From: Sphingopyxis sp. 113P3
GTDB taxonomy: Bacteria > Pseudomonadota > Alphaproteobacteria > Sphingomonadales > Sphingomonadaceae
Length of the DNA stretch: 64,000 nucleotides
NCBI RefSeq assembly: GCF_001278035.1
Contig: NZ_CP009452.1
Span: forward strand, 343,501-407,500
Reading direction: 5' to 3'
The notes below the pieces were generated by a model. The model saw nothing but the letters and a program-made list of their open reading frames with translations, was not told where the DNA came from and did no database searches. The first letter of the stretch is position 1; every line of letters starts with the position of its first letter. Of this stretch, positions 7,817 to 58,424 are shown one piece after another. A program made the position numbers and the translations under genes.

Positions 7817-7927
7817 GGCGAGCAGGCTCGGACGCCGTAAGGGCAATTGCAAGCGGCAATTTTTGTGCCGGCGCCCCGGCATTGACAGGCCTGACCCAGC
7901 TCTGCTCTGTCGCCGCCGGAGACAAGA

Positions 7928-26772: not shown

Positions 26773-26776
26773 CTAA

Positions 26777-28210: not shown

Positions 28211-28239
28211 CTAACTACAGCGCAGCAAACCGAGGCTCC

Positions 28240-29418: not shown

Positions 29419-30285
29419 TTATCGATAATTTTCATCGACCACCTCCCTGTTCAACAAAACGATCTGTTGTTCCTCAGGCCTTCGCGCGTTCGGATCGGTA
29501 TCAAGCCCGAGACGCCTCTGGGCGTCGTAGAGCAACGCCCTGTGCACCTTGATCTTCGTCTTGCCACGCATGCTGTAATCGAGTGCAATCACCTTAGCCT
29601 GCGGCTCGGACAGCTCGGAATGCGACCCGATCTCCAGCGTGATTTCCTCTTTCCAATCGGTATCGCTACCGGGCTCAACGTCATTGGGCTTAAAACCACG
29701 CACGTCGACATCCCGAGCGAGGAGGAAGTCTTTGTAGGATTGGTCGATCTGACAGAAGGCCCGAGCATGCCACCGAAAGCCATCGAAGCCGATGGCATGC
29801 GGCGCAATCCACCGCCAGCGCGGCTCCGGCCGCGAAAGCGTCTGATATTTGATCTCGATGGCAAGGTTGTTGCGAATGGCGCTGAGAACGGTCCGCGGCG
29901 TTTCTTTCGTGACATCCCGTGTGGGGACAGGTGGGCCACTGTAAGACGGGAAATGCGCAATCCACGAGGCTGCGGCCGGCAATATGTCTTCGGCGACAGA
30001 TCGTAGCTGCGTGAGATAATGGGCTGCGTCAGGCTTTAAAAAGCAAGGCCGGAACGTCTCGCTCGCCACGTATCGTTTGGCAATTTTGTCGTAGACGGCG
30101 TTGTGCGGAGCGCGTTCGCGATAAAGCATCAGATCTTTCGGCGCTTGCGGCACCGACCCGTCAAAGGCCTCGACGATATCGGAACGGTTGACCCTGCCTT
30201 CCCAATAAAGTCGAAACTCAATGAATTCGAGCCGGCGCTCTACACCCCATTTCGGCACCGTATTGCCCCCCGGCATCGCAAGCAT
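29419..30285 (-). CDS. WYL-domain transcriptional regulator (BrxR/CapW-like)
   Basis: The 288-residue protein starts with a winged-helix segment (WGVERRLEFIEFRLYWEGRV, residues 13-32). The WYL domain centres on RWRWIAPHAIGFDGFRWHAR (156-175), and a C-terminal WCX-like region includes KVIALDYSMRG. Proteins of this layout repress defence operons (BREX, CBASS and others). The usual clients are absent. The divergent gene, 286 bp away, is the interrupted MNT-HEPN protein, which may be its target. No clear operator repeat was found in the gap (30286-30571), which otherwise holds nothing recognisable. Either Met 30285 or Met 30276 could be the start. Confidence 0.8.
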   Translation of the reverse strand: MLAMPGGNTVPKWGVERRLEFIEFRLYWEGRVNRSDIVEAFDGSVPQAPKDLMLYRERAPHNAVYDKIAKRYVASETFRPCFLKPDAAHYLTQLRSVAEDILPAAASWIAHFPSYSGPPVPTRDVTKETPRTVLSAIRNNLAIEIKYQTLSRPEPRWRWIAPHAIGFDGFRWHARAFCQIDQSYKDFLLARDVDVRGFKPNDVEPGSDTDWKEEITLEIGSHSELSEPQAKVIALDYSMRGKTKIKVHRALLYDAQRRLGLDTDPNARRPEEQQIVLLNREVVDENYR

Positions 30286-34819: not shown

Positions 34820-34952
34820 TTCCACAAGCGTCGAATCTGGCGCCCCAATAAAGTACCGTCAAAACTGGCGAAATCAACACACCCGACTCGGTCCTTGGAT
34901 CGTCGGGATGGCGGGCGGAAATCACAGTGCATGGACGACAGAGGTTGAGAGG

Positions 34953-36290
34953 GTGAAGACAGTTTCTCGGCAAGAGCTTTACGAGCAGGTTTGGTCCAAA
35001 CCCATGACCAAAGTTGCCGCAGATTATGGCGTTACGGGTACCGCGTTGAAGAAGACGTGTGATCGCCACCACATTCCAACACCAGAACGTGGGTACTGGG
35101 CGAAACTAGAATTCGGCAAGCGGGTCAACAAGGAAGCGCTGCCGCCGCTGACCGCGCCAAATTTGGCTATGGTCAGGATATCAGGAAGTTCCGAGCAGCA
35201 TCTGTCTCCGTCGGTCCGCGACGCCAAGGAAAAAGCCAGAGACAGGCTCCACAAGCACGCTGCGGCTAAGCCGCTTCTGGTCTCTGAATCCGAACCGACA
35301 CTGAGCATCGTTGAACCGCCGTCTCTCGCTGCTACAAGGCGCGCGATTTCAAAAGCGCGTCCTGATGACCAGGGCTTCGCCGCGGTCCGCTCGAAAGGCG
35401 TTGTCCCGCTCAAAATTGCTCCTGCTTCCATCGAACGGGGAATTCGGATTCTAAGCCAGTTGTTCACTCTTGCGGAAACCCAAGGCCATTTGCCCAAGGC
35501 GACTGAAGACGGGTTGGTGCTGATTGTTGAGAATGAGTCAATTGCGTTCGGCCTGGAGGAACAGCCCGAGAAGACCTTGCATCAACCAACACCCGCGGAA
35601 TTGAAGCGGCGGGATGAAAGGGCACGCTGGGGCTACACCACCGATCCGTGGCCCAAGTACGACCAATTTCCATCCGGCCGGTTCGCCATCGTCATTCACG
35701 CCAACCCATATTCAGGTCTTCGCCGCACTTACTCAGACGGAAAGACGCAAACCCTGGAAAGCATGCTGCCGGACATATTGGCAGGTTTCGTCGGGCACGC
35801 CGCCTACATTAGTGAGCGCAGGAGAGAATCCGACGAGCGGGAACGCCGCCACCGGGAGGCCGAGGCTCGACGCCAGCGTGAAGAGGCATTCAATAGTCGC
35901 GAGAAGCGCCGCATGGAGTTTGTGGATGCAGTCCATGAGCAACTGACCCAACGGGACAAACTTACTGCAGTGCTGCATCATCTCGAAAATGCAAGGTCTG
36001 AGGATGCTGCAAGAGTGAGTACAATGGCGACTTGGGTCCGGCAGCGTCTGAAACAGATTGATGCCCTAATCAGTCCCCATTTCCTCGACACTTCGGCGAG
36101 ATCGTCGAAAGTCGATTTCGCCGAGCCAGGTCCTGAACAGGAAGCTGAAAGGGGCAGCTATTACTATTATCCCCCCATCACCCTCCAACTCTGGTCTATC
36201 GACGACGCAAAGGGGCTGGCCACCTCGTGCACGCAGCTGGACTGGACAGACGCGTTGGCTTGTCCGATTGAGGGAGCCGAGACAGGCTAG
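34953..36290 (+). CDS. Putative DNA-binding coiled-coil protein of unknown function
   Basis: About 445 residues. The N-terminus (SRQELYEQVWSKPMTKVAAD, then CDRHHIPTPERGYWAKLEFG) looks like a helix-turn-helix of a kind often seen on mobile elements. A variable linker follows, then a conserved-looking middle (RFAIVIHANPYSGLRRTYSD) and a long charged coiled coil (ERRRESDERERRHREAEARR). GTG 34953 follows GAGAGG and matches the expected MKTVSRQEL-type start; ATG 34908 is an alternative. I do not know its role. It sits alone between IS3 and an abiEi relic. Confidence 0.65.
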   Translation: MKTVSRQELYEQVWSKPMTKVAADYGVTGTALKKTCDRHHIPTPERGYWAKLEFGKRVNKEALPPLTAPNLAMVRISGSSEQHLSPSVRDAKEKARDRLHKHAAAKPLLVSESEPTLSIVEPPSLAATRRAISKARPDDQGFAAVRSKGVVPLKIAPASIERGIRILSQLFTLAETQGHLPKATEDGLVLIVENESIAFGLEEQPEKTLHQPTPAELKRRDERARWGYTTDPWPKYDQFPSGRFAIVIHANPYSGLRRTYSDGKTQTLESMLPDILAGFVGHAAYISERRRESDERERRHREAEARRQREEAFNSREKRRMEFVDAVHEQLTQRDKLTAVLHHLENARSEDAARVSTMATWVRQRLKQIDALISPHFLDTSARSSKVDFAEPGPEQEAERGSYYYYPPITLQLWSIDDAKGLATSCTQLDWTDALACPIEGAETG

Positions 36291-38542: not shown

Positions 38543-39736
38543 CTATGCACCAGCTCGGACAAGCGCCGCGGTCTGTGGGTCATAGATGTACCCAGTGATG
38601 GTTCCGTCCCTGATCTTCTCGATGGCTTGGTCGATTACAAACAGCGGGACGAGGAACCATTCGCGAGGGATGACGGGATTTCCGAACCTGTCCTTGATCT
38701 CGATGTCGAGCCTGGCCGGACCGAGGATGCGATGGATCAGGTTCTCAAGCCGCGTGCGATTGATGTTGAACAGCTCGTAGGTGGCCACAACCTCGACATC
38801 GGCCATGAGGAAGGTCGGATCGAGCTTCGCATTGGCAAGGCGGCGCGCAACATCGCCTCCGGTCACGCCGATCTTGTGCAGCACGTTGCGGTGGGCTGCG
38901 ACCGCAGGATGCTCCGATTTGCTCCGCAGCACATAGACAATGCCGCTGGCCTCGTCGCCTTCCTCATTGTCCTCGGCAAACAGCGGGCCGGCCGCAGGTT
39001 CGACGATCCGCCGTCCGGCCGGGTCTTGTTGCAGCGCCTTTTGGAGCGACCGCATGAGCAGATTGCTTTCGGTACCGTTGTCGAAGATCACACGTAGCCG
39101 GGCGTCGATATTGCCGTGCTCATTGACGCTCGGTTGCTCCATCGACGCGACATAGGCTTTCTGACCGCCAAGGATGTAAAACCGGCCGGGTGCGATCTCC
39201 GACTTGCGTTCGAAGCGGCGGGTTTGCCGCAGACCGGCACCAAGCTCCTTTTGCACCTGTTCGAACAGCGGCTTGAACTCGTCGAAGTCCTCGCATTTCT
39301 GGCGGTTGGCGATCTCCTCGGCGGCGCGTTTGTCGGCGGCGGAACGGACATGCCGCAATTGGGTGATATCGCTCGGCTCAGCGTCCACACCGAGCTGCGC
39401 CAGAAGCTCATCATCGTCGATGTCGTCGGGCACGCTGACCGAAGCGGGCGCCACATCGGCCAGAAGCCCCTGATGGTCGAGGGGTTCGATCACGGCGCGA
39501 CACTCGGCCAGCTCGCGCAAGCGATCTAGCCGCACGGCATAAAGCCGCTCGAAAATGTCGCGGTCCTCGCCATGCTGCGGGAAGCGGCCGTGCTGCTCGA
39601 CGAAACGCTGAATCTCCTCGAAGCCTGCGATGATGCGTTCCTCGCGCGGCGTCCTGCTTGACTCCTTCTTCGCCTCGGCCTCGACGCCAAGCTCGGCCAG
39701 AAGAGCATCGTCCTCGTCGGTGAAGCCCTTAGCCAC
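38543..39736 (-). CDS. GIY-YIG nuclease family protein of a methylase-helicase operon
   Basis: The 397-residue product has acidic, repeated N-terminal segments (DDALLAELGVEAEA near 9-22 and DDELLAQLGVDAEP near 107-120). A C-terminal GIY-YIG domain of the T5orf172/MUG113 kind follows: GIVYVLRSKS, LHKIGVTGGDVARRLANAKL, and RLENLIHRILGPARL with the catalytic-Glu helix. It is last of four genes; its start overlaps the helicase stop by 8 bases. The domain would supply the cutting activity that the methylase seems to lack. Duplicated ELGV segments may be docking motifs (inference). Confidence 0.8.
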   Translation of the reverse strand: MAKGFTDEDDALLAELGVEAEAKKESSRTPREERIIAGFEEIQRFVEQHGRFPQHGEDRDIFERLYAVRLDRLRELAECRAVIEPLDHQGLLADVAPASVSVPDDIDDDELLAQLGVDAEPSDITQLRHVRSAADKRAAEEIANRQKCEDFDEFKPLFEQVQKELGAGLRQTRRFERKSEIAPGRFYILGGQKAYVASMEQPSVNEHGNIDARLRVIFDNGTESNLLMRSLQKALQQDPAGRRIVEPAAGPLFAEDNEEGDEASGIVYVLRSKSEHPAVAAHRNVLHKIGVTGGDVARRLANAKLDPTFLMADVEVVATYELFNINRTRLENLIHRILGPARLDIEIKDRFGNPVIPREWFLVPLFVIDQAIEKIRDGTITGYIYDPQTAALVRAGA

Positions 39737-41792
39737 GCGCGGCCTCCGCCTTCATGCGTTGAAGGAAGGCCACCCCCTCGGCCATGCGCTTTTCCCAGGC
39801 GTCGACCGAGGTGATCGAAGGCAGCCGGCCGCGCTCTTGCTTGAACTTCAAGGCCCGTTTGGCAAGCTCCCGCGCCTCCTCGATTGTGAGGTTGACGCGT
39901 TTGGCCCCGATCACGGCGGCGACTTGCTTTAGGCTTTCCTCGCTCATGGTCTTGGCGAGGATGGCATAGGCTTCGCCGAAGGGGTTGATGCGATCGATCA
40001 GGTCGATGTCCAGCTCGCGCACATCCATTGCGTATTTGCGGACGCCCTCGATGAACGCGGTGTTGAGGCTCTTTTCGCCGTCACCCTCGGCTCCCCCAAG
40101 CGCGACCTCCTTGGCCTTCTGTGTGAGATTCAGTGCGGCGACGGCGTGCTGGCGCACCGCCTCCTGATCCTCCTCGTCCAGTTCGGGATACTTGTCCTTG
40201 ATGATTTTTCCCATGCGGAGCTGGGTCAGTTCTTCCGGCACCAGCTCGGGATCGAACAGGCCGCGCTCGATTGTGGTCTTGTCCTGCACGAAGGCGGCGA
40301 TGACCTCGTTCAGGTCTTGCTGGCAGATGCGTTGTGCCTCCGGGCTCTTCGGCTCGACGAGGCCCTTGATCTCGATCTGGAACTGGCCGGTTTCCTCGTT
40401 GAAGCCGACATTGGTCTTGTTGGGGTCGTACCCGCCTTCACCGTAGTCAAAGCCCGGCGTCGGGCCACTCTGCGGATCCTTCGGCTTGAATTCGAAGCGC
40501 GGCGCAAGCACCTGTTCCATGAGAAGGCTGGCGGCGATGGCCTTCAGCGTGTCATTGACGGCCTCGGTGACGGCCTCTTCCGATGCATCCGGCTCGGCGA
40601 TCAGGTTGGTGAAGCGGGCGCGCAGCTTGCCCGGCGCGTCGCGGGTGGCGCGGCCGATGATCTGCACGATCTCGGTGAGGCTCGACCGATAGCCGACCGT
40701 CAGCGCGTGCTCGCACCAGATCCAGTCGAAGCCCTCCTTAGCCATGCCGAGCGCGATGATGATGTCCACATGATCGCGGTTGTTCTTTTGCGCCGGGTCC
40801 TTCAGCGCGGCGGTCACGCGGTCGCGCTTGGCGGGATCGTCGTCCACCAAGTCGGCGATACGAAGGATGCGGCCGTCGGGAGTCCTGACCAATTGGAAGC
40901 CGGTCGCAGGATCACGGCCCTGCCAATCGCCCAACTCGTGGAGGATGTGTTCCACCTCCTTGATCTTGTCTCCCATACTTTCGCGGGAATTGACGTTCGG
41001 GATGTGGACGATGGTTTTCTCGGCCGGGTTGAGCACCTTCAGGATGTCGTCCGTATACGGGCCGTTGTAGAAGAAGTAACCGATGTCGAGTTGCTTGAGA
41101 TATTCGTAGCCGTTGAGCTGTTCGTAGTAGGTGTAGGTGACGGTGTCGAACTTCGACTCGTCCTGCGGGGCGAGCACGGCCTCGGCGTCGCCCCGGAAAT
41201 AGGAGCCCGTCATCGCCACGATATGCACGCGGTCGCGGGCGATGAACTGGCCGAGATGCAGGCCGAGCTTGTTGTCGGGGTTGGCCGAGACGTGATGGAA
41301 CTCGTCAACCGCGATCAGCCGGTCGTCGAAGGCTTCCACCCCTAACCTGTCCACGGCGAAGCGGAAGGTGGCATGGGTGCAGACCAGCACCTTGTCGTCG
41401 CTTTTCAGGAAAGCCTCGACCGAATTGACCTTGCCGCCGCTGTCCGTGCCAGGGGCGTTACAGAGGTTCCATTTCGGCACGACGGTCCAGTCCGTCCAGA
41501 AGCCGAACTTGGACAGCGGCTCGTCGTTGAAGCTCGCGCCGATGGACTTTTCCGGCACCACGATGATTGCCTGTCTCAAGCCCTGATTGTGCAGCTTGTC
41601 GAGCGCGATGAACATGAGCGCGCGGCTCTTGCCGGAAGCTGGCGGCGACTTGATGAGAAGGTATTGCTCGCCGCGCTTCTCATAGGCGCGCTCCTGCATC
41701 GGCCTCATGCCGAGCGCATTAGCTTTGGTCGAGCTGCCATTGCGCGCATAGGTGACGGAGACAGAGGGGACAGATTTCTTCTCGTCGGTCAT
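39729..41792 (-). CDS. DEAD/DEAH-box superfamily 2 helicase (Res-like)
   Basis: The 687-residue SF2 helicase has Q-like region GMRPMQERAYEKRGEQYLLI, motif I SPPASGKSRALM (50-60), motif II AVDEFHHV, motif III MTGSYFRG, motif V GMAKEGFDW and motif VI QIIGRATRD. The fold resembles the Res/translocase subunits of restriction systems. It overlaps the methylase gene by ATGA (41789-41792) and the GIY-YIG gene by 8 bases, so the three are tightly coupled. It probably moves on DNA at unmethylated sites and licenses cleavage by the GIY-YIG partner. Confidence 0.88.
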   Translation of the reverse strand: MTDEKKSVPSVSVTYARNGSSTKANALGMRPMQERAYEKRGEQYLLIKSPPASGKSRALMFIALDKLHNQGLRQAIIVVPEKSIGASFNDEPLSKFGFWTDWTVVPKWNLCNAPGTDSGGKVNSVEAFLKSDDKVLVCTHATFRFAVDRLGVEAFDDRLIAVDEFHHVSANPDNKLGLHLGQFIARDRVHIVAMTGSYFRGDAEAVLAPQDESKFDTVTYTYYEQLNGYEYLKQLDIGYFFYNGPYTDDILKVLNPAEKTIVHIPNVNSRESMGDKIKEVEHILHELGDWQGRDPATGFQLVRTPDGRILRIADLVDDDPAKRDRVTAALKDPAQKNNRDHVDIIIALGMAKEGFDWIWCEHALTVGYRSSLTEIVQIIGRATRDAPGKLRARFTNLIAEPDASEEAVTEAVNDTLKAIAASLLMEQVLAPRFEFKPKDPQSGPTPGFDYGEGGYDPNKTNVGFNEETGQFQIEIKGLVEPKSPEAQRICQQDLNEVIAAFVQDKTTIERGLFDPELVPEELTQLRMGKIIKDKYPELDEEDQEAVRQHAVAALNLTQKAKEVALGGAEGDGEKSLNTAFIEGVRKYAMDVRELDIDLIDRINPFGEAYAILAKTMSEESLKQVAAVIGAKRVNLTIEEARELAKRALKFKQERGRLPSITSVDAWEKRMAEGVAFLQRMKAEAARG

Positions 41793-44566
41793 GCACGCGC
41801 CTCCGCCTTGCTTTTCTTCGCCGCGCCAGGTGAGGCGGCCATTTTGGTATAAAGCTCGAACAGCTTTTCCAGCCGCTCGGTGTCGTTGCGGAACCGGCGG
41901 CCGATATAGATGCGCTCAAGCACTTCATCGTTGCGCTCATGGGCGTCGCGCAAATCGGCGGGCATCTTGTCGGGGTCATAGAGGTCGGCGATGGTCGCTG
42001 GGAAATGCGCCTCGCGCGCCAGCAGGATGTCCTCCGCGCAACGGGTCAGGTCAGCCTTGTTCTTTTCGGTGAGCGTGGGAACGGGGAAGGTATTCCAGCC
42101 GAGCGTGTTGGAATAGCGGAAATCGGTTTTCAGCTTGCCGCAGACGGTGGCGATCCAGACCAAGTGCAGGCGCGAGGCGATCAGCGCCATGCTCCAGAGT
42201 GGGGCGTCGTAAAGGGCAAAGGCTTGGTTGGTCGTCACCGCGCTTGCGTGCTTAAGATCAGCAGGAATAAACTCTCGTCGCTCGGAAGACACTGTGGGCA
42301 CAAGGATCGAGTGCCGAACGGCAACGTTCCGGTCACGATATTGATGAGAGCGGACCGCAAGCTTGTTTAACGACTTGTCGCGACTGGTTGTGCGAGTGTT
42401 GTAGACCGCTGCTATCCTGCGGGCGACTTCGGGATCGCTTTCGGCGAGCGGCAAATCGTCGTCATCTATCCAGAGGCAGTAGCGAGAAAGCCCCTTGATA
42501 AATTCCTGTGCGCCATAAACAGGGCGGATTAATCTGGACAGGTCGGGTCGACGCGACAAAATCTCTGTCCGGTCCGTGGAGTAGAGTGTGAGATGGTTCC
42601 CGTCGCCCGGATAGTTCCCGTAGCTCATCTCCACGAGTTCGGCTAACGGCTTAGTGCGGGGCGTTACTATGAAGTCTTCCGCCGGGACTAAGTAGGCGTT
42701 GATGTGATGTGCCTCTCTGATGGCGACCGAGCCGTCAGCCGACAACGAATACAGTTTCCGAAATGGCTTCGGCGTTCTGGAGATCGCGACAATTGCGACG
42801 GTCACTCCGGCATTGTGGCTGGCCAGATTGGACCATTTGAAGCTCGTGTGGGCGAAGGCGATTTGGTGACCGGTTTGAAATATGAGCGGCCATAGCAACG
42901 GCACCTGCTGGCCTTGGCAAATCGAGTTGGTGGTAACGAAAGCGGCAACGGCGTCCGTATGCTCGCCGTAGTCAGCGGCCTTCATGAACCATCCGGCCAC
43001 ATAGTCGAGAGTCTTCCAACTTGCTGTGCGCCCCTCAAATATCCGAGCTAAATCCTCCTTTTGCTCGGGCAATTGCTCGCGGGAACCCTGATAAGGAGGA
43101 TTCCCGCAGATATAGGTCTCGCCTCCTTCGTTCTCGAAGTCGATCTGGGATTGATCGAGTGGCGTGTGAAACAGGTCATCGGCCCGATGCTTCACACCTG
43201 TCCCGGTCGGCGGGCAAATGCTCAGCCAGTCCAGCCGCAGGGCATTGCCACAGGTGATCCAGTTCTCGGCGTCGAGCGGCAGGAAGTCACGCAGGGCTTC
43301 CTTCTGGCCGCGATAAAGCACGTCGCATTGATACTCGGCGATGATGAGGGCGAGGCGCGCGATCTCGGCCGGGAAGCTGCGGAGCTCGATCCCACGGAAG
43401 TTTGTCAGCGGGATTTCGCTCCGCCTGTCCGGCTCGCCCCGCCGCTTGTTGATCTCGGCCTCGATCTCCCGCATTTGCTTGTAGGCAATGACAAGAAAGT
43501 TGCCCGAGCCGCAGGCCGGATCGAAGACCCTGATCCGCGACATGCGCTTGCGCAGGTTCAACAACATGCGGGGATTGTCGCCGGCCTCGTCGAGCCGCGC
43601 CCGCAGGTCGTCGAGGAAAAGCGGATTGAGCACTTTCAGGATGTTCGGGACACTGGTGTAGTGCATCCCGAGCGCGCCGCGCTCCTCGTCATCTGCTACG
43701 GCCTGAATCATCGACCCGAAGATGTCCGGGTTGATCTTCTTCCAGTCGAGGCCGCCGATATGGATGAGGTAGGAGCGCGCGATCCGGCTGAAGCGCGGCA
43801 CGTCCATGGTGCCGGAAAACAGCCCGCCATTCACATAGGGAAACTGATCGGCCCAGCGGGGGGTGTTGGCTGCCTTACGTTCCGCGTCCCTCATGTTCAT
43901 GGCGCGGAACAAGGTCCCGATCACCTCATGGGTGTTCGACGAGTCCTTGGCGCTCAACTGCTCGACGGTCGAGGTGAACAGGAGCGGCTTGGCGAAGATG
44001 TCGGTGTCCTCGGCGAAGAAGCAGAAAATCAGCCGCGCCATGAAGTGATTCATATCGGGGCGGCGCGCGGCCGTGCCCCAGTCTGGGTTGTCCTTCAGAA
44101 GCTCGACATAGAGCCGGTTCAGGCGGCTGGTGGCACGGATGTCGAAGGAGCTGTCGCGCACCTGCTTGACGGTGGTGATGCCCGCAAGGGGCAGGAAGAA
44201 GCCGAAATGGTCGGGGAAGTCGGCATAGGCGCAGGCGACCGTTTCGCCCGACGCCAAATCCTCGGCCTCGAAGGTATCACCGTCCGTCGCCAGCACGAAT
44301 TTCGCCTTGGCCCGCGTCGTCGCCGGGCTGGCCTTAAGGGCGGCAAGCGTGCTTGTCACCGCGCCGGGGGCGGCGACGGCGATATGGATATTATTGGTCT
44401 GAAGAACGCCGCCAACGTCGGACTTGTTCGACTCACCCTTGCGAAGCCGCTTGAGGGTCGTTTCCTTGTTACCAAAGGCTTGCAGGAAGAGATACGGGAA
44501 CTCCTCGGGGTCGAACGGCTGCTCGGCAAGCTTCGATATAGCCTCTTCAATCTCGACGGCGTTCAT
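41789..44566 (-). CDS. MmeI-like class I SAM-dependent DNA methyltransferase
   Basis: The 925-residue N6-adenine methylase has motif I DPACGSGNFLVIAYKQM (349-365) and motif IV CGNPPYQG (487-494). The surrounding architecture is MmeI-like: helical domain (NPDIFGSMIQAV, RGALGMHYTSVPNILKVLNP), LTNFRGIELRSFPAEIARLA, and a C-terminal specificity domain. The N-terminal 130 residues show no evident PD-(D/E)xK nuclease, unlike true type IIG enzymes, so it looks like modification plus recognition only. Its start overlaps the HigA-like gene by 20 bases and its stop overlaps the helicase start. Confidence 0.88.
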   Translation of the reverse strand: MNAVEIEEAISKLAEQPFDPEEFPYLFLQAFGNKETTLKRLRKGESNKSDVGGVLQTNNIHIAVAAPGAVTSTLAALKASPATTRAKAKFVLATDGDTFEAEDLASGETVACAYADFPDHFGFFLPLAGITTVKQVRDSSFDIRATSRLNRLYVELLKDNPDWGTAARRPDMNHFMARLIFCFFAEDTDIFAKPLLFTSTVEQLSAKDSSNTHEVIGTLFRAMNMRDAERKAANTPRWADQFPYVNGGLFSGTMDVPRFSRIARSYLIHIGGLDWKKINPDIFGSMIQAVADDEERGALGMHYTSVPNILKVLNPLFLDDLRARLDEAGDNPRMLLNLRKRMSRIRVFDPACGSGNFLVIAYKQMREIEAEINKRRGEPDRRSEIPLTNFRGIELRSFPAEIARLALIIAEYQCDVLYRGQKEALRDFLPLDAENWITCGNALRLDWLSICPPTGTGVKHRADDLFHTPLDQSQIDFENEGGETYICGNPPYQGSREQLPEQKEDLARIFEGRTASWKTLDYVAGWFMKAADYGEHTDAVAAFVTTNSICQGQQVPLLWPLIFQTGHQIAFAHTSFKWSNLASHNAGVTVAIVAISRTPKPFRKLYSLSADGSVAIREAHHINAYLVPAEDFIVTPRTKPLAELVEMSYGNYPGDGNHLTLYSTDRTEILSRRPDLSRLIRPVYGAQEFIKGLSRYCLWIDDDDLPLAESDPEVARRIAAVYNTRTTSRDKSLNKLAVRSHQYRDRNVAVRHSILVPTVSSERREFIPADLKHASAVTTNQAFALYDAPLWSMALIASRLHLVWIATVCGKLKTDFRYSNTLGWNTFPVPTLTEKNKADLTRCAEDILLAREAHFPATIADLYDPDKMPADLRDAHERNDEVLERIYIGRRFRNDTERLEKLFELYTKMAASPGAAKKSKAEARA

Positions 44567-44855
44567 CGTTCCCCCCGCCTTCCGTGGCTGTAGGCCGGAA
44601 AGGCTCCACCTTGATCTTCTTGGCCCGTCGCATGACCTCGGCCAGTTCGTAGTCGAGCTGGCGAATCAGCCATTCGCGTGCCGGGGTGCCGAACGCCATT
44701 TCCAGCCGGACGGCCATCTCTGGCGAGATGCCAGACCTGGCGTTCAGCAAGTTGCTGAGGGTTTGCCGATCGACACCGAGTATCCTAGCGGCGTCGGTCA
44801 CACTCAGCCCGTTCTTCTCAATACAGTCCTGCCGGACGCTCGTTCCTGGGTGCAT
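44547..44855 (-). CDS. HigA-type HTH protein heading the methylase-helicase operon
   Basis: The 102-residue protein has the HigA/VapA antidote pattern: MHPGTSVRQ, an HTH (LSVTDAARILGVDRQTLSNL), and ISPEMAVRLEMAFGTPAREWL. No HigB-type toxin lies upstream (44856-45001 is non-coding). It overlaps the methylase gene by 20 bases, so it probably works as the operon's controller, as C proteins do in restriction-modification systems, rather than as half of a toxin-antitoxin pair. The C-terminal extension (VEPFRPTATEGGG) goes beyond typical HigA. Confidence 0.82.
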   Translation of the reverse strand: MHPGTSVRQDCIEKNGLSVTDAARILGVDRQTLSNLLNARSGISPEMAVRLEMAFGTPAREWLIRQLDYELAEVMRRAKKIKVEPFRPTATEGGGNDERRRD

Positions 44856-44884
44856 TGCCTGTCGAATCGTCTGGGCCCCTTGAG

Positions 44885-44908
44885 GTCGACGCTATAGTGA
44901 TAATCGAC
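44885..44908. promoter_or_regulatory. Inverted-repeat candidate operator before HigA-type gene
   Basis: GTCGA-N14-TCGAC lies 30 bases upstream of the HigA-type start; the spacer contains TATAGT and GATAAT, which could overlap a -10 box. Controllers of this family bind such repeats to limit their own operon. Short arms make this tentative. Confidence 0.35.
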
Positions 44909-45001
44909 ACTCGACAAGATGAGTCGGGGCCGCGTCCACAACGGCCGCAGCGCAGCGAAAAGTGACGACGCCGAGGTGAAAGAACTGAAGCCCAGCCGCC
45001 G

Positions 45002-47464
45002 TTACGAGGCCGGGATCGGCACCGCGAGCTGATTTGCGATCGGCGTATAGATGTCGATGTTTGCGCCTGGCGCGCGAACCGACACCAGCAGCGAGTATCG
45101 GGCCGAGCGATCCCAGCGCTGCAAGCCGGGCTTCTCTTTCCACCACCCGCTCACCGGGAAAACACCGATGGCATCCCGGTCTGCAAGCGCCGCGGCGCTC
45201 CCACGCCAGATGTCTGAGTGGATGGAGCCCCGATCCCGGATCGGTCCGAGCACCCAGTCGTCCCCGCCGGCGGCGCCGCCGATCTGCCCAGCTTCCTCGG
45301 CCTCGGCAGCCTTATTGATGCGCTGCCTGAACTGCTGAAGGCTCTCGAGTGAACGCTTCACCGCAAAGCGCAGGGAATGAGAAGCGTAGCGATGCCGGCG
45401 GGTCCAGCCGCGTTCCCCGGGGTTGGGTTCAACGAAATAGGACAGCGTCACTCTTAGCTCAACGTCCTGATCGCCGAGAGCGAGGAGCGCGTCCCGAGGC
45501 CACGGTAGCTGATGCAAATTCATGTTGCGCGTCTTGATGACGGACCCATCACGACGGAAGGGAAGCAGCGCGTCCTCTACCATCAACGTTGCGTCATCCG
45601 CCGCGCTCCACAGCGCACGACCAAGATCGGGAACACCCCAGCCGTACCGGCGCAGCATCGCCATCTTCTGCGCTTGCGATGCTGCCGCATCGAAGCGCTC
45701 ACGCATCGCCGGCGTCCATTCTGCGGAATGCACCAGCAGCCCCCGCACCGTTTCCGGCCAGAGCTCCGGCCGAGCAGCAATGACGCCCGCCGCCAAATTC
45801 GCGCCAAGAGCCGCCGCCGCGCTTGTGTCTCCGAAGGTTTCGAAGAGGCGCATCTGTGGCCGGTAATGAGTGGTGATCAGTTGCAGGTCATCGATTGCCG
45901 AGGCCGCATTGATTCCGTCATGCGCAAAGTTGCCACCCTCGAAGACCACGTCCGGGCGGATCGGCCACTGGCGCTCCCAAATTCCGGACGTGCGGCTTGC
46001 CGGCGATAGGTCTCCCGCCGGTGCGACGGGATCCCAGCCTACATAGTCCGGGTGCGTGATGGTGATCTTGTCAGTGTAAGCTCCGACGACCAAGGGGTTC
46101 CAAGCCTGGGCTGGGCTCTCCACCTCTTCCAGATCGTTGCGATCCGGATAGCCGTCCACCTCGATGTCGCCGCGCAGGTTGCCCGCCGCGAGGACCATCA
46201 GGCGACGACGGTCGCCGCCGCCATAGCAAAGCTGGTCGACCGCTGCGGACCACGATGAGGGTCGGCCCCGCGCCAGCCCGACTTCGCTGGTCACTGCCAA
46301 GCAGAAGACGCGGCGGCGCCGAGATGCGCGCGCCTCGGCCTTTGTGATGCCCACCTCGGTGATCGCACCGTAGAGCTCCGGATCATTCTGGCCTGCCGGT
46401 GGAAGGATCTTCACGGTTTCGAGGCGGTGGCGCAATTCCACGGGCTCAGCATGGCTGAGTGCTGCCTCGATATCGCCGTAGAGAGCAACGCCGGCCATCG
46501 CCGTGCCGTGGCCATTCCAGAACGCGCTGTCACCGACACCCCATGCATCGTCATAGGCATGCTGATCAGCCGCTTCCAGGCCGGGCTCCAACAATGGATG
46601 GGCCCGGTTCGCTCCGCTGTCGAGGATGCATACTGCCGGCGCGACGGCATCCGGAGCTTCTACCCTGTCGACCAGGTCTTCTGCCCAGTCGGCCTGCTCG
46701 ATCGGCCGCATTTCCAGGAAAAGCGTGGGCGCGTCCTTTGCTATGCGTAGCTCGGCCACGGCGTCGCTGTTTTCCACCAGCCGCGCCATCGTCTCCTCGG
46801 TCGCGAGCGCCAGCACAACATCTCGCTCGGGAAAACTGATCGCATGATCTTTCACAGCGACGTTGAGCCGCTCTGCCACGTGGCGGAAAGTCTCCAGACG
46901 CCCATCGCGAATCCAGACCTCCCACCAAGCCGCGCGACCGGCCTCCGGAAACAGCGCCATATCGTCGGTGAACAAGGAACGCACCGCCGCCAGGCGAATG
47001 TCCTCGATCCTCGCGACAAGCGCTTCGTTCTTTGGCTTTCCGGATTTGGTGTCCTCATCACGGTAGGCGGTGATCTTCCGGGAAAAGAACTCTGCCGACC
47101 GCTCCGGCACAAAGACCGTTGCTGCAACAGTCTCGTCCCCCTCCGCGGTCGGACGGACCGCTACGAGCTCGATAGCCGCGGGCTTGTTCTCCAAACCCTC
47201 AACGGCTGCGCGCTCCGCTGCAAGGATCTCGAATTCGAGGTAGAACCCCCGCTCGCCTTCGGCGATTGCCTCATCACGGGCGGCCAGCTTGCGCCGCGCC
47301 TCCACCACCGCCGACCCGATGGCCCGCTCGAGCTTTTGGGCGTGCGCCGCTCGCACGCGAGCTGGCGGCAAGCCGCTGATGACCAGTCGTGGTGAAGTGT
47401 AGGGTTCTGCTTGGCCGCCCCCTTCGACATGAAAGTGCGGCCGATCGCGCGGTGCTCTGGCCAT
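45002..47464 (-). CDS. S8 (subtilisin-like) peptidase paired with an AAA ATPase
   Basis: The 820-residue protein has an N-terminal region of about 270 residues with no signal peptide. The subtilase triad follows: Asp282 in CILDSGANRAHP, His319 in NGHGTAMAG, oxyanion Asn429 in AAGN and Ser548 in GDTSAAAA. A long C-terminal domain (about 600-820) is unassigned. The absence of a signal suggests it acts in the cytoplasm. It starts 15 bases after the AAA gene on the same strand. The arrangement suggests that ATPase-sensed stress unleashes proteolysis; its substrates are unknown. Confidence 0.87.
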   Translation of the reverse strand: MARAPRDRPHFHVEGGGQAEPYTSPRLVISGLPPARVRAAHAQKLERAIGSAVVEARRKLAARDEAIAEGERGFYLEFEILAAERAAVEGLENKPAAIELVAVRPTAEGDETVAATVFVPERSAEFFSRKITAYRDEDTKSGKPKNEALVARIEDIRLAAVRSLFTDDMALFPEAGRAAWWEVWIRDGRLETFRHVAERLNVAVKDHAISFPERDVVLALATEETMARLVENSDAVAELRIAKDAPTLFLEMRPIEQADWAEDLVDRVEAPDAVAPAVCILDSGANRAHPLLEPGLEAADQHAYDDAWGVGDSAFWNGHGTAMAGVALYGDIEAALSHAEPVELRHRLETVKILPPAGQNDPELYGAITEVGITKAEARASRRRRVFCLAVTSEVGLARGRPSSWSAAVDQLCYGGGDRRRLMVLAAGNLRGDIEVDGYPDRNDLEEVESPAQAWNPLVVGAYTDKITITHPDYVGWDPVAPAGDLSPASRTSGIWERQWPIRPDVVFEGGNFAHDGINAASAIDDLQLITTHYRPQMRLFETFGDTSAAAALGANLAAGVIAARPELWPETVRGLLVHSAEWTPAMRERFDAAASQAQKMAMLRRYGWGVPDLGRALWSAADDATLMVEDALLPFRRDGSVIKTRNMNLHQLPWPRDALLALGDQDVELRVTLSYFVEPNPGERGWTRRHRYASHSLRFAVKRSLESLQQFRQRINKAAEAEEAGQIGGAAGGDDWVLGPIRDRGSIHSDIWRGSAAALADRDAIGVFPVSGWWKEKPGLQRWDRSARYSLLVSVRAPGANIDIYTPIANQLAVPIPAS

Positions 47465-47479
47465 TTAGCGACGACTACC

Positions 47480-48463
47480 TCAACTCATGGCGGCCCGGCG
47501 CTCCGCCAATGTCGAGAGCAGCGTCAGCGTTTTGATCTCATCTGAATCCGCCAGCACCGCGACTTTCGCCGCCTCGTCGGCGGCTCGGAAGACTTCGGCC
47601 TGACTCAGCCCGGTTGTGGCCTCAAGAACTCGTGACCAATCCAGGTCTTTCAGATCGAAGCCGGTCAAATGCGATTCGAGAATCCCGCGCGCGATCTCCG
47701 GGTCGGGCAAGCCATAGGTGATGACGTCGTCAAACCGCCGGAAGACTGCCTTGTCGAGCAGCTCAGGATGATTGGTCGCCGCGACAATGAGGCTCGGGCC
47801 ATCGTCATTCTCCAGGAACTGGAGGAAGGAATTCAGCACACGCCGAATCTCGCCCACGTCGTTGGGGCCAGACCGCTGCGCGCCGATGGCATCGAATTCG
47901 TCGAAGAAATAGACGCCGCGTTGAACGGCGATCGCGTCGAATACCATGCGGAGCCGCGTCGCTGTCTCGCCCATCAGTTTACCAATAAGCCCGTCGTACA
48001 GGACTGTGAAGAGCGGCAGCTTCAGCTCGCCGGCGAGTGCGGCCGCCGTCATGGTCTTCCCACAACCGGGAGGGCCGACGAGAAGCAGCTTGCGGCGCGG
48101 CGTGAGACCCCGCGCTCGCAGGCGCGCCTGTTGGCGCTGCTCGGTGACCACCCGTGCGAGCCGGTCCTCCAGTTCGGGCGCGAGGACCATGCTGCTCAGC
48201 CGAATGTCCGAATAGCGCGCCGCGAGGAGGCTGCTGAGCTCGCCCTTGGGCTGAGCCAGCGGGACCGGGCCCGCACCACGTCGCGCGACGGTCGCGCCCT
48301 TTCCTTTGGCCGCGTCGATCAGCTCGCGGAGCTCTTGTGCGAGCTTCCCATGTCCCTGACGCGCCTCATGGGCGGCAAGCTGCGTCGCGACGGAGAGGAA
48401 ACGCTCTTCGTCCCCGTCGATATGGCTTCGCAGCAGTGCAACTATGTGGCGTGCAGTGGACAT
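47480..48463 (-). CDS. AAA-family ATPase upstream of the subtilase
   Basis: The 327-residue classic AAA ATPase has Walker A LLLVGPPGCGKT (126-137), pore-like LFTVLYDGLIGKLMGET, Walker B VYFFDEFDAIG, and sensor-1 LIVAATNHPELLD with an FRRFDD arginine-finger/SRH end. The N-terminal 80 residues are helical (LLRSHIDGDEERFLSVATQL). It resembles ATPases that unfold or present partners to proteases. With the subtilase directly downstream (gap 15 bp) it forms a two-gene unit inside a defence cluster. Confidence 0.87.
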   Translation of the reverse strand: MSTARHIVALLRSHIDGDEERFLSVATQLAAHEARQGHGKLAQELRELIDAAKGKGATVARRGAGPVPLAQPKGELSSLLAARYSDIRLSSMVLAPELEDRLARVVTEQRQQARLRARGLTPRRKLLLVGPPGCGKTMTAAALAGELKLPLFTVLYDGLIGKLMGETATRLRMVFDAIAVQRGVYFFDEFDAIGAQRSGPNDVGEIRRVLNSFLQFLENDDGPSLIVAATNHPELLDKAVFRRFDDVITYGLPDPEIARGILESHLTGFDLKDLDWSRVLEATTGLSQAEVFRAADEAAKVAVLADSDEIKTLTLLSTLAERRAAMS

Positions 48464-50638: not shown

Positions 50639-50856
50639 ATGCTTTACACTCAGAGCCAGATTCGGGAGCTACTTTCCATTTCAGTGGATGCCCTGCGCAC
50701 TTGGCGGGATGCGATCCCTGCATTGGCTGCGCATAAGGGTCATGCTCCGAGCTTCACGCCCGGGGACGTTGTCGCGATGGCGATCGTGGCCGAACTGGTC
50801 AGAGATTTCGGCGTCCGCGTCGGCACGGTCGGTAGTCGTTTCGATCAACTGTTTAG

Positions 50857-52290
50857 CACTACTTTGGCAGAAATGTGATTTTTGGGATTCCCAAAAGGAG
50901 ATTTCCCTGATTCATGGGGAGCCAGCTTTTATGGAGGCTGGCGATGTCAGAGGATTGGCGCAATGATCTTGAGGTTTGGCTGACGCCATTTTTGTCGGCG
51001 TTGCGGCACAAGGCGCGGAAGCGTGTGTGCCCGGCCTATATCGCGGGATTGATCGGCCCCGGTGACCGCAAGAGCGTGCAGCCGATGGCGGCTCGTGATG
51101 GTGAGTTTGGCTACGACCAACTGCATCATTTCGTCGCGGACGGGGTGTGGGATAGTGCGCCGCTCGAGGCTGTTCTTCTGAAGGAAGCCGATCGTCTGGT
51201 TGGAGACGAAGCGGGATATCTGGTCATTGACGATACTGCCTTGCCGAAGAAGGGCCGTCATTCGGTCGGCGTGGCTGCGCAATACGCCTCCTCCCTTGGC
51301 AAGACCTCGAACTGCCAATCCCTCGTTTCGGTGACGCTAGCGTCCGGGGAGGTTCCGGTGATGGTGGGCCTGCGGCTCTTTTTGCCTGAAAGCTGGACGG
51401 ACGACGCCCCCCGCATGGAGCGCGCCCGTGTCCCCCAGGAGCGACAAGTCGCTCGCACAAAGCCGGAGATCGCTATCGAGGAGATCGATCGGGTCATTGC
51501 CTCGGGCACTCGGTTCGGCTGCGTTCTAGCCGACGCCGGCTACGGGGCGAGCGGCCCCTTCCGCCAGGCTCTGAGCGAGCGTGGTTTGCGGTGGGCGGTG
51601 GGCATGTCACGGCGTCAGAATGTCTATCCGGCAGACACCGGGCTGATCTTTCCCGAGGCAGCAACAGGCAGGCGCCGCAAATATCACGTCCCCGACCGCA
51701 CCGCCGTTTCTGCCGAAAAGATGCTGGGAGAAGAAAAATGGAAGAAAATCAGCTGGCGACGCGGGACCAAAGGCAAGCTGACCTGTAAATTTGCGGCATG
51801 CCGCGTCCGGGTGGCCGATGGCCACAGGCACCGCATGAGTGACGGGCGGGTCCAGGCCATGCCCAGCGAGGAGGAAGTCTGGCTGGTGGGGGAACGGCGC
51901 GAAAGCGGAGAGCAAAAATACTATCTCTCGAACTTGCCAGCCGACACGCCGATCAAGGCGCTCGCCGGTGCCATCAAGGCGCGGTGGATCTGCGAGCAGG
52001 CGCATCAGCAGCTGAAGGAGGAACTCGGTCTCGACCACTTTGAGGGCCGATCATGGACCGGACTACACCGACACGCGCTGATGACGATGATCGCCTATGC
52101 CTTTCTTCAGTCCCGCCGTCTAAGCGCAGCGGGGCGGAAAAAAAAGAAACTCGGGACCGCCGCCGCAACCGACCATGCCTGCCGTCAGGCAGGCGATAAT
52201 CAACCTCTTCGCAAGACCGCCACCGACGATCTGCCCTCACTGCAATAAACTGGTTACAGCGACCGATCCGAATAATCTGCCAAAGTAGTG
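50857..52290 (+). mobile_element. IS701-family insertion sequence, copy 2 (1434 bp)
   Basis: Same length and same terminal CACTACTTTGGCAGA repeats as the element at 26777-28210, in opposite orientation, flanked by duplicated TTAG (50853-50856, 52291-52294). It disrupts the HTH gene. Relative to the element both copies chose the same target word, TTAG/CTAA. Confidence 0.93.
50914..52248 (+). CDS. IS701-family DDE transposase, copy 2
   Basis: This 444-residue frame is identical in protein sequence to the transposase of copy 1 and is complete. Its presence in two opposite copies 22.6 kb apart implies recent transposition within this genome. Confidence 0.93.
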   Translation: MGSQLLWRLAMSEDWRNDLEVWLTPFLSALRHKARKRVCPAYIAGLIGPGDRKSVQPMAARDGEFGYDQLHHFVADGVWDSAPLEAVLLKEADRLVGDEAGYLVIDDTALPKKGRHSVGVAAQYASSLGKTSNCQSLVSVTLASGEVPVMVGLRLFLPESWTDDAPRMERARVPQERQVARTKPEIAIEEIDRVIASGTRFGCVLADAGYGASGPFRQALSERGLRWAVGMSRRQNVYPADTGLIFPEAATGRRRKYHVPDRTAVSAEKMLGEEKWKKISWRRGTKGKLTCKFAACRVRVADGHRHRMSDGRVQAMPSEEEVWLVGERRESGEQKYYLSNLPADTPIKALAGAIKARWICEQAHQQLKEELGLDHFEGRSWTGLHRHALMTMIAYAFLQSRRLSAAGRKKKKLGTAAATDHACRQAGDNQPLRKTATDDLPSLQ

Positions 52291-52549
52291 TTAGGGAGTG
52301 TCGCGGCAAGTCATGGCTCTCGCTGGAAACCTGCGTCGTCCTCATCGAGGCTGATAGCATCCGTCTCGTTGACGCTGGCACGCCGGCGCGTCCGTCGCCC
52401 GACGCCTCCACCCTATGCGTTCCTTGTGGGCCCATTGTGTCGCGCTTGCAGACGGCGCTTACGGCTACCGAAGCCGATCTGGCCCAAGGCTATCTGCAGT
52501 TCCCCCCCACTGCGATCGGCTCGAAAACAGAACGACGTGGAAGACGAGC

Positions 52550-55500
52550 ATGACCGCCACTGGGCCATCAAAGTTGGCGCCGGAGTGGAAAGACCGATTG
52601 GGGCTTACACATCGGCGTTCGCCTGAACTCTACGAGTCAGCCGACGCCGTCAGCGACGTGCCGCATGCGCCGGCCATCCGAGCCGCTCTCACTGAAATGG
52701 GCGTATCAGCTATCTTCTGCGTCCAGGGCGTGCCAACTGTCGCGATCCTAGAAACCGAAAATTATGACCGCGCCGCAATACTCGACCTTCACGGTGCACT
52801 GTGGAATCAGGGCTTGGCGAGCCTGTTGCTGGTCATCGCCGAAGAGACGCTCAGAGCGTTTTCGCTCGCTCGCACTCCGCTTAGCGATCCAGGCGATGCG
52901 TTTGAGGCCCGTTGCCTTATCGATAGCCTAAACCTGACGACCGAAGCCCTGAGATTTCAAAATCTCATTTATGGTGCGGAATCCGGACGTCTCTGGAAGG
53001 ACTACGGCGAGTATTTCCCTCCAAAGGAACGCATCGATCAGGTACTCCTCGACAATCTGAATGCGTCTCACGACCTGCTGCAGAAGGCCGCGCTTGCCCC
53101 AGATGCGGCGCAAGCCCTGCTCATACAAGCGATGTTTATCGCCTATCTGGAAGACCGGGAGATCGTAACGCCCGCTTATTTTTCGGCCGTCTCCGACAGG
53201 AGAGCCGAGAGCTTCTCGGCGCTGCTAGAAACGGGCGACGTCGATCTCTTCCGATCCTTTTTCAGAACGCTCCATGCGGATTTCAACGGCGATCTGTTCG
53301 TCGCGCCGTGCTCATTTGAGCCCATGGGCGAGGCACCCGAGGTCACGCCCGCCCACCTGTCGATCCTGGCGCGGTTTCGGTCAGGCCGCGAAGAAATGGC
53401 GCATTCAGGCCAGCAGCGGTTCTGGGGCTATGACTTCCGCTATATCCCGATCGAACTAGTCAGCGCTGTCTACGATCGCTTCCTAGGTGAGCGCGAGGCT
53501 GAACGCCGCGCCAACGGCGCCTATTACACGCCTATGTTCCTCGCCGACACCATCGTTTCCCAAGCTTGGGAGATGTTGCCGGATGCGACACGGACGAACG
53601 GAAACTTTCTCGACCCCGCCTGCGGTTCAGGCGTTTTCCTCGTCCGCTCGTTCCAGCGGCTGTGTGAGCACTGGCGCGCCAAACACAAGACGCAGACAAT
53701 TTCCTGGGAGACGCTGCTGTCCTTGCTGAGCCAAATCCACGGCTGGGACTTAAACGGCGGCGCCGTTCGAGTAGCGGTATTCTCGCTCTACGTCGCCCTC
53801 CTTGAGGAGGTGTCGCCACGCGACATCCGTAAACTCATTAGCCGGGGAAAGATCCTCCCCGAACTCTGGGGCAAGACACTTGTCTGCCGCGACTTTTTCG
53901 AAGTGTCGCCGGACAGCGCCCAGTACGAGGTCATCATTGGCAATCCGCCATGGACCAGTCGGCGTGGTCCGGCACGTTCGTCCGTGCAGTGGAGCAAGAA
54001 GGCGGGGCATCCGATGCCCGGTGGCGAGGACGCTTGGGCATTCAGCTGGAAAGCACTATCGCATCTCGCCGATGGCGGACTGATTGCGTTCCTGTTGCCG
54101 GCGATGGGGTTTTTGCACAACCACGCTCAAAACACGGTTGAAGCGCGCGAGGCGTTCTTCCGGAAATCGCAGGTCCGCCGCATCATCAACTTCGCGGATC
54201 TCCGATTTCAGCTTTTCGAAAAGGCTCATCGCCCTGCTGCTCTGATCATCTACGGCAGCCCGAAGCCAGATAATTTCCCGTATCGTTTCGATTACTGGGC
54301 ACCAAAGGCCGACCTCAATCTGCGTATCAAGCGCGTCATCACGCTAAGCAGCGCCGACAAGGCCGCACTGGGTGTAGGTGCGGTCCTGGATAATCCGCTC
54401 ATCTTCAAGCAGCGCCTTTGGATGCGCGAGCCAGACGCCAAGCTCTTCGGCTACCTCGCGAGGCTACCCAAACTAGGAGCTTTCGTTAGCGACTACGGCA
54501 GCTTGAGCCGTCGCCGCGAAGAGCCGGGCGATCGCTGGGTGATCGGGCAAGGGTATCAGCCTTTCAATGAGGACAGCGAAAGCGACGCTCCGCCGCTCGC
54601 CAGCGAGTACGTCGGCCGACTACCCGACCTGCCAATCGCTGCCTATTCACGCTTGGCTCAGGCCACAGAAGGCTTGCAGCCGGCTAAGTCATCGACGGTT
54701 CGTCGACGCGGATTCGAGGCCGGGTTCAATGGCTCTCGCATCCTTATCCCGAGGGGGGTCGAAACGTCGCAAAACCGCCTTCGGGCCGCTTACTGCGATC
54801 AGCCGCTGACCTTCCAACATATCTTACAAGCGATTGTTGTGCCGCACGGCCAGAGCGATCGTGCGAAGGTGCTGACCGCGATACTCAATAGTCGCGTTGC
54901 GGTCTGGTACGCTTTTCATGGCACTGCTTCGTTCGGTTCGGATCGACCCGAGGTCCAACAGGCCGACCTGCTACGATTGCCCTTTCCATCGCCCGACGAT
55001 GTCCCCGATCGGGCTGCCGCCGCTCAAGCCGCCCTTGAGCTGATTGCAATTGTGGACGACGCACGGGAACGCTCCAGCGAACCTTTCTCGATGCAGATCG
55101 ACGACGGCGCGATCCTTCGAGCAATCGATCGGCTGGCGTACCAGTATTTTTGCCTGTCAGCTGATGAAATCGCGCTGATCGACGATGCTGTCGAAGCGAT
55201 CCTGCCTGCACTTCAGCCTCATGACGGCTATTACCCGAAGCTGTGGGGCGCACCGGACGAACAGCAACGGGCACAATACGCCTACACATTGGCAGCCAGC
55301 CTCCGAGACTGGTTCAAAGGCAAGAAGATCGATGCGCGACTCGTCGCTCGTGGCTCTGACCTAGCGATACTTCGACTGCGCCTGGGCGGCCAGGAGGACT
55401 ATGCCGAAGATCCGGCTGGCGAGCTCAGCGAAGTGCTCGGACAACTTGCAGCCCACATACACAGGCCCCTCGACGGCAATTTCCAACTAATGCCGGACAT

Positions 55501-58422: not shown

Positions 58423-58424
58423 CT

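Follow-up and report, generated by a model that had tools for sequence, protein, structure and literature searches.

The closest described system to the operon reported here is the DnmA(YeeA)-YeeB-YeeC cluster of Bacillus subtilis, in which an N6-methyladenine (m6A) methylase is followed by a helicase and then by a T5orf172/GIY-YIG protein (PMC9973331; PMC7261158). DnmA produces m6A at GACGAG, is 38% identical to MmeI and has no endonuclease motif (PMC9973331; PMC7261158), and it showed no endonuclease activity (PMC7261158). The missing motif is credited to Morgan 2009 and the defence-island setting to Makarova 2011 (PMC9973331; PMC7261158); a Type I-like system was proposed by Morgan et al. 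2009, according to PMC7261158. Among 368 neighbourhoods of DnmA homologues, helicase and T5orf172/GIY-YIG families were the commonest, in the first and second positions downstream (PMC9973331); the co-occurrence of methylase, helicase and GIY-YIG protein is already published. In Vibrio crassostreae, deletions of dnmA and yeeB led to higher sensitivity to some phages (PMC9973331, citing Piel et al.). We analysed a 64,000-nucleotide stretch of Sphingopyxis sp. 113P3 (contig NZ_CP009452.1, positions 343,501 to 407,500; hereafter the window, with features numbered from its first letter), which carries a related operon headed by a toxin-less HigA-family gene and a conserved 26-bp block.

Other restriction systems share parts of this plan. 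Type ISP enzymes (LlaBIII/LlaGI) combine a nuclease, a superfamily 2 (SF2) motor, a gamma-methylase and a recognition domain for an asymmetric site in one chain with an Mrr-like nuclease (PMC3874165; PMC4666363), whereas the operon here has separate reading frames for three proteins and a GIY-YIG domain. The Type I system with RptR has a multi-subunit ATP-dependent plan, a small repressor of the island promoter and an embedded foreign toxin-antitoxin module, DarTG2 (PMC12255303). Unlike it, the operon has no HsdS or HsdR among its four proteins (Pfam, PADLOC and NCBIfam; the rest of the genome was not searched), and RptR, whose site is TAGCTA, is not the same repressor as HigA (PMC12255303).

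Layout and recurrence of the operon

Four open reading frames (ORFs) on the minus strand, spanning 38543-44855, make up the operon. From the promoter side, the ORF list gives a HigA-family helix-turn-helix (HTH) protein with no recognisable toxin gene adjoining (44547-44855, 102 amino acids), an MmeI-family adenine methylase with a target-recognition domain, YeeA/DnmA-like (41789-44566, 925 amino acids), an SF2 DExH helicase/translocase, YeeB-like (39729-41792, 687 amino acids) and a GIY-YIG protein, YeeC-like (38543-39736, 397 amino acids). The overlaps of 20 bases (HigA/methylase), 4 bases (methylase/helicase) and 8 bases (helicase/GIY-YIG) between these reverse-strand genes are those given by the original prediction, which had been made from the letters and an ORF list. 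That prediction set the operon's end at 44908; the HigA start codon lies 53 bp earlier, at 44855, and the 53 bp in between contain part of the conserved block at 44892-44917.

The combination had been called unrecognised, and a named counterpart does exist for three of its four families: methylase, helicase and T5orf172/GIY-YIG protein lie here in the order of DnmA-YeeB-YeeC and on one strand, in a like defence-island setting, and the methylase is again an MmeI-like protein without the MmeI nuclease motif (PMC9973331; PMC7261158). Unlike the published cluster, the operon here is headed by HigA and the 26-bp block. The earlier picture of a restriction-like machine, its recognition, translocation and cutting assigned to separate proteins and a controller added, agrees with the sequence evidence, although the kind was already recognised. 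We consider it fairly probable, from the features set out below, that the operon encodes a restriction-modification system of the DnmA-YeeB-YeeC kind that depends on ATP and has the components of a Type I or Type ISP enzyme divided among separate proteins. Among open-licence PMC papers we found no other name for this gene set; PMC8432527 deals with other restriction systems.

Conservation was followed in 80 genome loci (those of highest identity among 528 relatives, hence not evenly sampled; more distant relatives, at 45-53% identity, also exist), in 27 viral-collection contigs and in 398 genomes sampled evenly across the phylum. The GIY-YIG gene adjoins the helicase gene in 78 of the 79 genome loci with room for it and in 26 of 27 viral-collection contigs, the exceptions being L137, where the helicase ORF is cut short, and viral contig L054; a methylase lies upstream on the same strand in 77/77 genome loci and 21/21 viral-collection contigs. 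The even sample contains the helicase in 24 genomes (our own included), with the GIY-YIG gene beside it in all 24. A methylase was found in the 1.5-kb flank at 19 of 22 loci (L002-L023), the other three having MmeI_N farther upstream on the same contig and strand; in two more of the 24 genomes the contig begins inside the helicase. Of 14 control genomes, only that of B. subtilis gave an MmeI_N match, and one further genome besides it matched T5orf172.

At least 8,000 proteins matched the GIY-YIG protein, and at least 8,000 the helicase. Helicase matches occur in 260 of 72,556 plasmid records (in 153 they span at least 80% of the helicase), and in three annotated plasmid regions methylase, helicase and GIY-YIG protein follow one another in this order, the methylase of one region being followed first by an extra gene. 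Across the 80 genome loci, helicase identity to the window's protein is 79-96%; that Bacillota isolates, Tumebacillus and Paenibacillus for instance, fall within this range suggests horizontal transfer. Four Bacillota genera other than Bacillus are among the relatives. Because the arrangement recurs in relatives from several phyla, some known from metagenome bins alone, it goes beyond chance. The gene-neighbourhood check that had been suggested thus found methylase, helicase and GIY-YIG genes together in relatives, and HigA only in one variant. The contrary outcome named beforehand, a methylase with a nuclease domain and no conserved GIY-YIG neighbour, was not seen: the domain is there without its motif, and the GIY-YIG gene is nearly always adjacent.

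Between methylase and helicase lies a slot that exceeds 150 bp in 45 of 77 genome loci and is 60 bp or less in 32, the window being of the latter kind. Pfam families were assigned to eight of 14 representative slot genes (three from viral contigs): Schlafen/AlbA_2 with HATPase, RhuM, YhcG/DUF1016, BrnT, GmrSD_N, CoiA_N, PDDEXK_4 and DUF4258. Some short slot ORFs (69-100 amino acids) may not be genes, and the gap in L136 has no ORF. Two genomes have methylase and helicase about 7 kb apart with several genes between, and in L202 a reverse-transcriptase-like ORF (7316-8074, judged by eye with no family search) lies between the two.

Methylase, motor and nuclease

All five MmeI domains were matched in the methylase, and MmeI itself (PDB 5hr4) matches it in two stretches spanning residues 85-913 (E 6.7e-133). 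The motifs FDPACGSGNF (348) and NPPY (489) are intact, their patterns being seen in 80 and 78 of 81 sequences. The original prediction had seen no evident nuclease domain; in fact the MmeI_N domain is present (121.7 bits) and it is the catalytic motif that has gone. At 44384-44428 (minus strand) the window reads NKSDVGGVLQTNNIH where other MmeI-family proteins carry D-x9-ExK, the motif that a Type IIL (MmeI) restriction enzyme must have intact. D-x9-ExK was found in 13/13 evaluable MmeI-family proteins not linked to the helicase versus 0/81 helicase-linked ones, and is also missing in the window; all 81 linked methylases carry instead the replacement motif [SAT]D..G..VL...[IF]H (a loose form, as in SDxGGVLQxxNIH). 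The controls were 14 proteins picked from a larger set of non-linked MmeI_N matches, which came from genomes where no helicase was matched or, in the case of G150, from a site some 175 kb away from the helicase; L138 was dropped, having no residues in the cut, and 13 carry plain D-x9-ExK and 11 of the 14 a stricter pattern.

The loss of the motif contradicts the PADLOC label for this protein, REase_MTase_IIG (927 bits), by which it would be a Type IIG restriction enzyme-methylase cutting alone beside unrelated genes. We rejected this assignment and regard the idea as highly improbable: the motif is missing in every helicase-linked methylase and in the window, the neighbouring genes are conserved, and DnmA was reported to be without endonuclease activity (PMC7261158). 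Unlike MmeI and other Type IIL enzymes, with which it shares the five domains, the operon's methylase would draw its motor and nuclease from two further proteins.

Among 80 relatives the recognition domain has a median identity to the window's of 44.1%, against 71.2-87.0% for the other four domains; this divergence fits changing DNA specificity. MmeI_N (median 77.7%) is about as conserved as the catalytic domain (74.1%), which suggests a kept interface, and the dead nuclease domain is probably retained as an interface or docking surface.

Helicase motif residues GKS, DEFH, TGS and QI-GR-TRD are invariant in 35 sequences, while the Pfam DEAD and ResIII matches are barely over their cut-offs. 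A search of PDB sequences with the helicase alignment found nothing, and PADLOC gives the helicase a weak match alone, to PbeA (22.8 bits).

The GIY-YIG protein matches MUG113 (5.4e-15) and T5orf172 (2.8e-12), domains that we take to belong to the GIY-YIG superfamily. It consists of an acidic LLxxLGV segment, a helical part (residues ~30-86), a second acidic segment, an SH3-like barrel (~171-245) and a C-terminal GIY-YIG-type (T5orf172/MUG113) domain. The duplicated acidic segments of the original prediction are real: LLxxLGV occurs twice, from residues 12 and 111, the first segment lying at about 39674-39724 and the second, DDDELLAQLGVD, at 39377-39427 on the minus strand. G265, Y268, K288, G290, R299 and E331, encoded at 38744-38944 (minus strand) and presumably the catalytic positions of the GIY-YIG fold, are invariant across 41 aligned sequences. 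PADLOC returned no match for the protein below E 0.01 and the search of PDB sequences none at all.

An element F..E.GR.P...D..E is shared by the C-terminus of the helicase and the N-terminus of the GIY-YIG protein (hhalign E 6.5e-4 over 25 columns, probability 27%), the controls giving E 0.051 or worse for eight other helicase slices and 0.063 and 0.42 for two other parts of the GIY-YIG protein; as a sequence likeness it is a lead only. A Pfam PMBR match in the same helicase stretch was not trusted.

Ratios of non-synonymous to synonymous substitution (dN/dS)—rough values, the synonymous distances being high (0.4-1.7)—were 0.126-0.212 for the methylase, 0.046-0.070 for the helicase, 0.057-0.115 for the GIY-YIG protein (four pairs each) and 0.055-0.060 for HigA (two pairs), which argues that each gene is maintained.

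Several published results weigh against restriction by such a cluster. Deletion of dnmA in B. subtilis left transformation by a three-site plasmid unchanged (PMC7261158), deletion of dnmA, yeeB or yeeC left infection by three phages unchanged, one of them with 44 sites, the DnmA site is not avoided in phage genomes, and the authors of PMC9973331 call the cluster a relic in B. subtilis (PMC9973331). The deletion data favour a restriction relic: the methylase alone would be active, as an orphan m6A enzyme that influences gene expression (the case made for B. subtilis DnmA), with helicase and GIY-YIG protein carried along. We judge this unlikely for the present operon: helicase and GIY-YIG protein are more constrained than the methylase (0.046-0.115 versus 0.126-0.212) and show no variation at their motif residues, the recognition domain has diverged in the way that a restriction system would lead one to expect, and the B. 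subtilis YeeB and YeeC are without C-terminal stretches that V. crassostreae has (PMC9973331).

The structure models add to the contrary points. When the helicase model is searched with Foldseek, Type ISP LlaBIII takes ranks 2 and 3, in favour of the restriction reading, but an RNA helicase from a ribosome precursor comes first and the LlaBIII superpositions are poor (root-mean-square deviation ~20, TM-score 0.35-0.37 by query length). Hef, RIG-I-like proteins, FANCM and Mfd lead the 50 rows of VIA-align, LlaBIII not being among them, so that the fold evidence for the modelled helicase is generic, and the GIY-YIG fold match of the structure model is weak. The presence of the fork or duplex translocases Hef, FANCM and UvsW in the VIA-align rows, like the lack of motif avoidance in phages (PMC9973331), speaks for defence without site-guided cutting, in which the methylase marks self and helicase and GIY-YIG protein act on ends, forks or modified bases of invading DNA. 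We think this quite unlikely, since the three genes almost always occur as a set in the same order (with other genes between the first two at some loci) and the altered MmeI_N is conserved as if an interface were kept.

In an ATP-dependent restriction-modification system of the kind preferred here, the MmeI-like methylase would recognise a short asymmetric site and methylate one adenine, and its former nuclease domain, its active site lost, would probably serve as a docking surface. At an unmethylated site it would load the SF2 motor, which would travel on duplex DNA, and the GIY-YIG protein, tethered through its helical and acidic N-terminal segments, would cut or nick, probably where motors from opposed sites meet. 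Since methylation is on one strand only, cutting at opposed sites would keep the system from attacking its own DNA after replication; this problem and the opposed-sites idea are set out in PMC3874165. Complex formation, translocation and cutting are steps that we infer.

HigA and the 26-bp block

The first protein of the operon matches the HigA family TIGR02607 with 73.1 bits (cut-off 47.7). Between its start and the end of the upstream IetS-like gene lie 146 bp in which we saw no HigB-like ORF by eye, no family search of the gap having been made; judged in the same way, the HigB-before-HigA order of a HigBA toxin-antitoxin module is absent, as had been predicted of the operon head.

HigA-like matches occur in nine of the 80 genome loci. 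Six are strong, coupled and toxin-less (L059, L061, L063, L065, L066, L082), and in the last five of these, as in the window, the HigA and methylase genes share 4 or 20 bases; the same five are the coupled toxin-less cases among the 64 genome loci where the start of the methylase is visible (L059 not counted). At the three weaker matches (L086, L090, L114) a HigB-like ORF, judged by eye, stands in front and the gene lies 0.1-2.3 kb upstream of the methylase. Because of these two differences, coupled toxin-less HigA with its block is a distinct arrangement. With only six strong, coupled, toxin-less cases in 80, we rejected HigA as a core part: it is an accessory of one variant.

The 26-bp block TTGTCGAGTGTCGATTATCACTATAG lies at 44892-44917 on the minus strand, 36 bp before the HigA start, contains AGTG-N8-CACT and is a candidate HigA operator/promoter. 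The sequences that precede HigA in the window and at the six strong matches otherwise align poorly, so that the block is conspicuous among them, and 11 copies, 0-2 bases off the window's, each lie just before HigA. At the eight loci where it was confidently placed, 30-37 bp separate the end of the block from the start codon (placement failed at L066 and L213 and was doubtful at L061). Its 15-base core, with two positions degenerate, was found at the six HigA loci and in two copies of the window's region, and at 0/160 of the remaining of 168 loci. A 19-base part has one copy in its own 4.66-Mb genome with up to 3 mismatches allowed; we rejected a general promoter element on this count.

An independent test in 385 class genomes found the core with 0-2 mismatches in four others, each time before HigA and a methylase start; two belong to full HigA-methylase-helicase-GIY-YIG operons, one to a methylase remnant and one to a contig edge. 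All five matches with 0-2 mismatches, the window included, precede HigA and the four with 3 mismatches do not; the reversed control pattern gave three matches. The core also occurs in 28 viral contigs; over the sequence covered, the six query proteins are absent from all of them. Broken or partial loci were kept throughout: L059 (methylase frameshifted and interrupted), L214 (methylase remnant) and L215 (contig end).

From the position and conservation of the block, HigA is probably an autorepressor, repression being one further step that we infer: it would repress its own promoter through the block. Carried into a cell that lacks HigA, the operon would at first be fully open and would then be turned down, much as C proteins regulate Type II systems. 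Those C proteins are small HTH controllers. HigA would resemble them as a small HTH protein within the operon, possibly autoregulatory, and differs in family—HigA, not a known C-protein family (PMC12255303 mentions the comparison with C proteins).

Three observations run counter to such a role. The family can do without HigA, a coupled toxin-less copy of which precedes just 6 of 80 genome loci; a scan near HigA for a sigma-70 consensus and a terminator found neither, leaving the promoter unplaced; and L059 and L214 have the HigA-block head before a broken or remnant methylase. HigA might instead be the remnant of a higBA pair beside the operon with no control over it, a view that concerns the controller only and is compatible with the restriction reading of the core. 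The HigA-like genes of L086, L090 and L114, with their HigB-like ORFs set apart from the methylase, and the empty sigma-70 scan agree with it. The overlap of toxin-less HigA with the methylase in five loci and the window, the low dN/dS of HigA and the same block before HigA each time do not, and we hold a remnant to be unlikely.

With some hesitation, and at a little short of even confidence, we propose that HigA was recruited without its toxin as a dedicated controller, its 26-bp operator travelling with the operon among Alphaproteobacteria, on a cassette platform that would comprise the dead nuclease domain as docking site, a fast-diverging recognition domain and, as in Type I, a methylase-motor slot for changing accessory defence genes. 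Elsewhere the small genes before the methylase (one representative each) match RelB, Phd/YefM, HTH_17, PIN and, below threshold, ribbon-helix-helix families, and there may be a recurring but non-homologous controller slot upstream of the methylase. Other small antitoxin-like, HTH or PIN genes occupy HigA's place in L034, L071, L079, L126 and L127, some overlapping the methylase start. The HigA-headed form with the block, as recognised here by sequence, was not found described in the literature examined and appears to be new; the main text of PMC9973331 does not mention HigA.

Defence neighbourhood and significance

Directly upstream of the operon and on the same strand lie genes for an IetS-like subtilase (45002-47464, PADLOC 107 bits) and an IetA-like AAA ATPase (47480-48463, PADLOC 248 bits), an Ietas-like defence pair of which both members fall below the NCBIfam curated cut-offs. 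A 1077-residue Type IIG-like restriction enzyme-methylase (52415-55648, PADLOC 271 bits) is followed by an unassigned 217-residue ORF (55648-56301) and a Gabija pair (56455-60308; GajA 796 bits, GajB 731 bits, PADLOC). On the other side are an AbiEi-like antitoxin gene (28283-29131, PADLOC 329 bits), a WYL-domain protein (29419-30285) and a 460-residue ORF (34908-36290) with no Pfam family above cut-off (a weak RWP-RK match) and no PADLOC match. AbiEi with the other systems nearby looks like a defence island. PADLOC found no BREX or DISARM partners (PglZ, BrxC, DrmA/DrmB) in the four operon proteins and 13 neighbouring ORFs; its DrmMI and PglX matches cover portions of two proteins, the methylase and the Type IIG-like neighbour.

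An insertion sequence of 1442 bp with a DDE_5 transposase is present in two identical copies (26773-28214 and 50853-52294), about 22.6 kb apart and in opposite orientation. They bracket AbiEi, the HigA-headed operon and the Ietas-like pair in the manner of a composite transposon; the 12 bases beside each end do not match.

The cluster is common (24/398 genomes; 260 of 72,556 plasmid records), yet the 2023 PADLOC models convincingly recognise it through the methylase alone, the only one of the four operon proteins that they name with conviction. Restriction was negative in B. subtilis, whereas a phage effect was seen in Vibrio; conserved copies like this one, with a predicted operator and the prediction of paired opposed sites, make the question of restriction testable. 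If our reading of HigA is true, a toxin-less antitoxin acting as controller would add a type of regulator to those of restriction systems.

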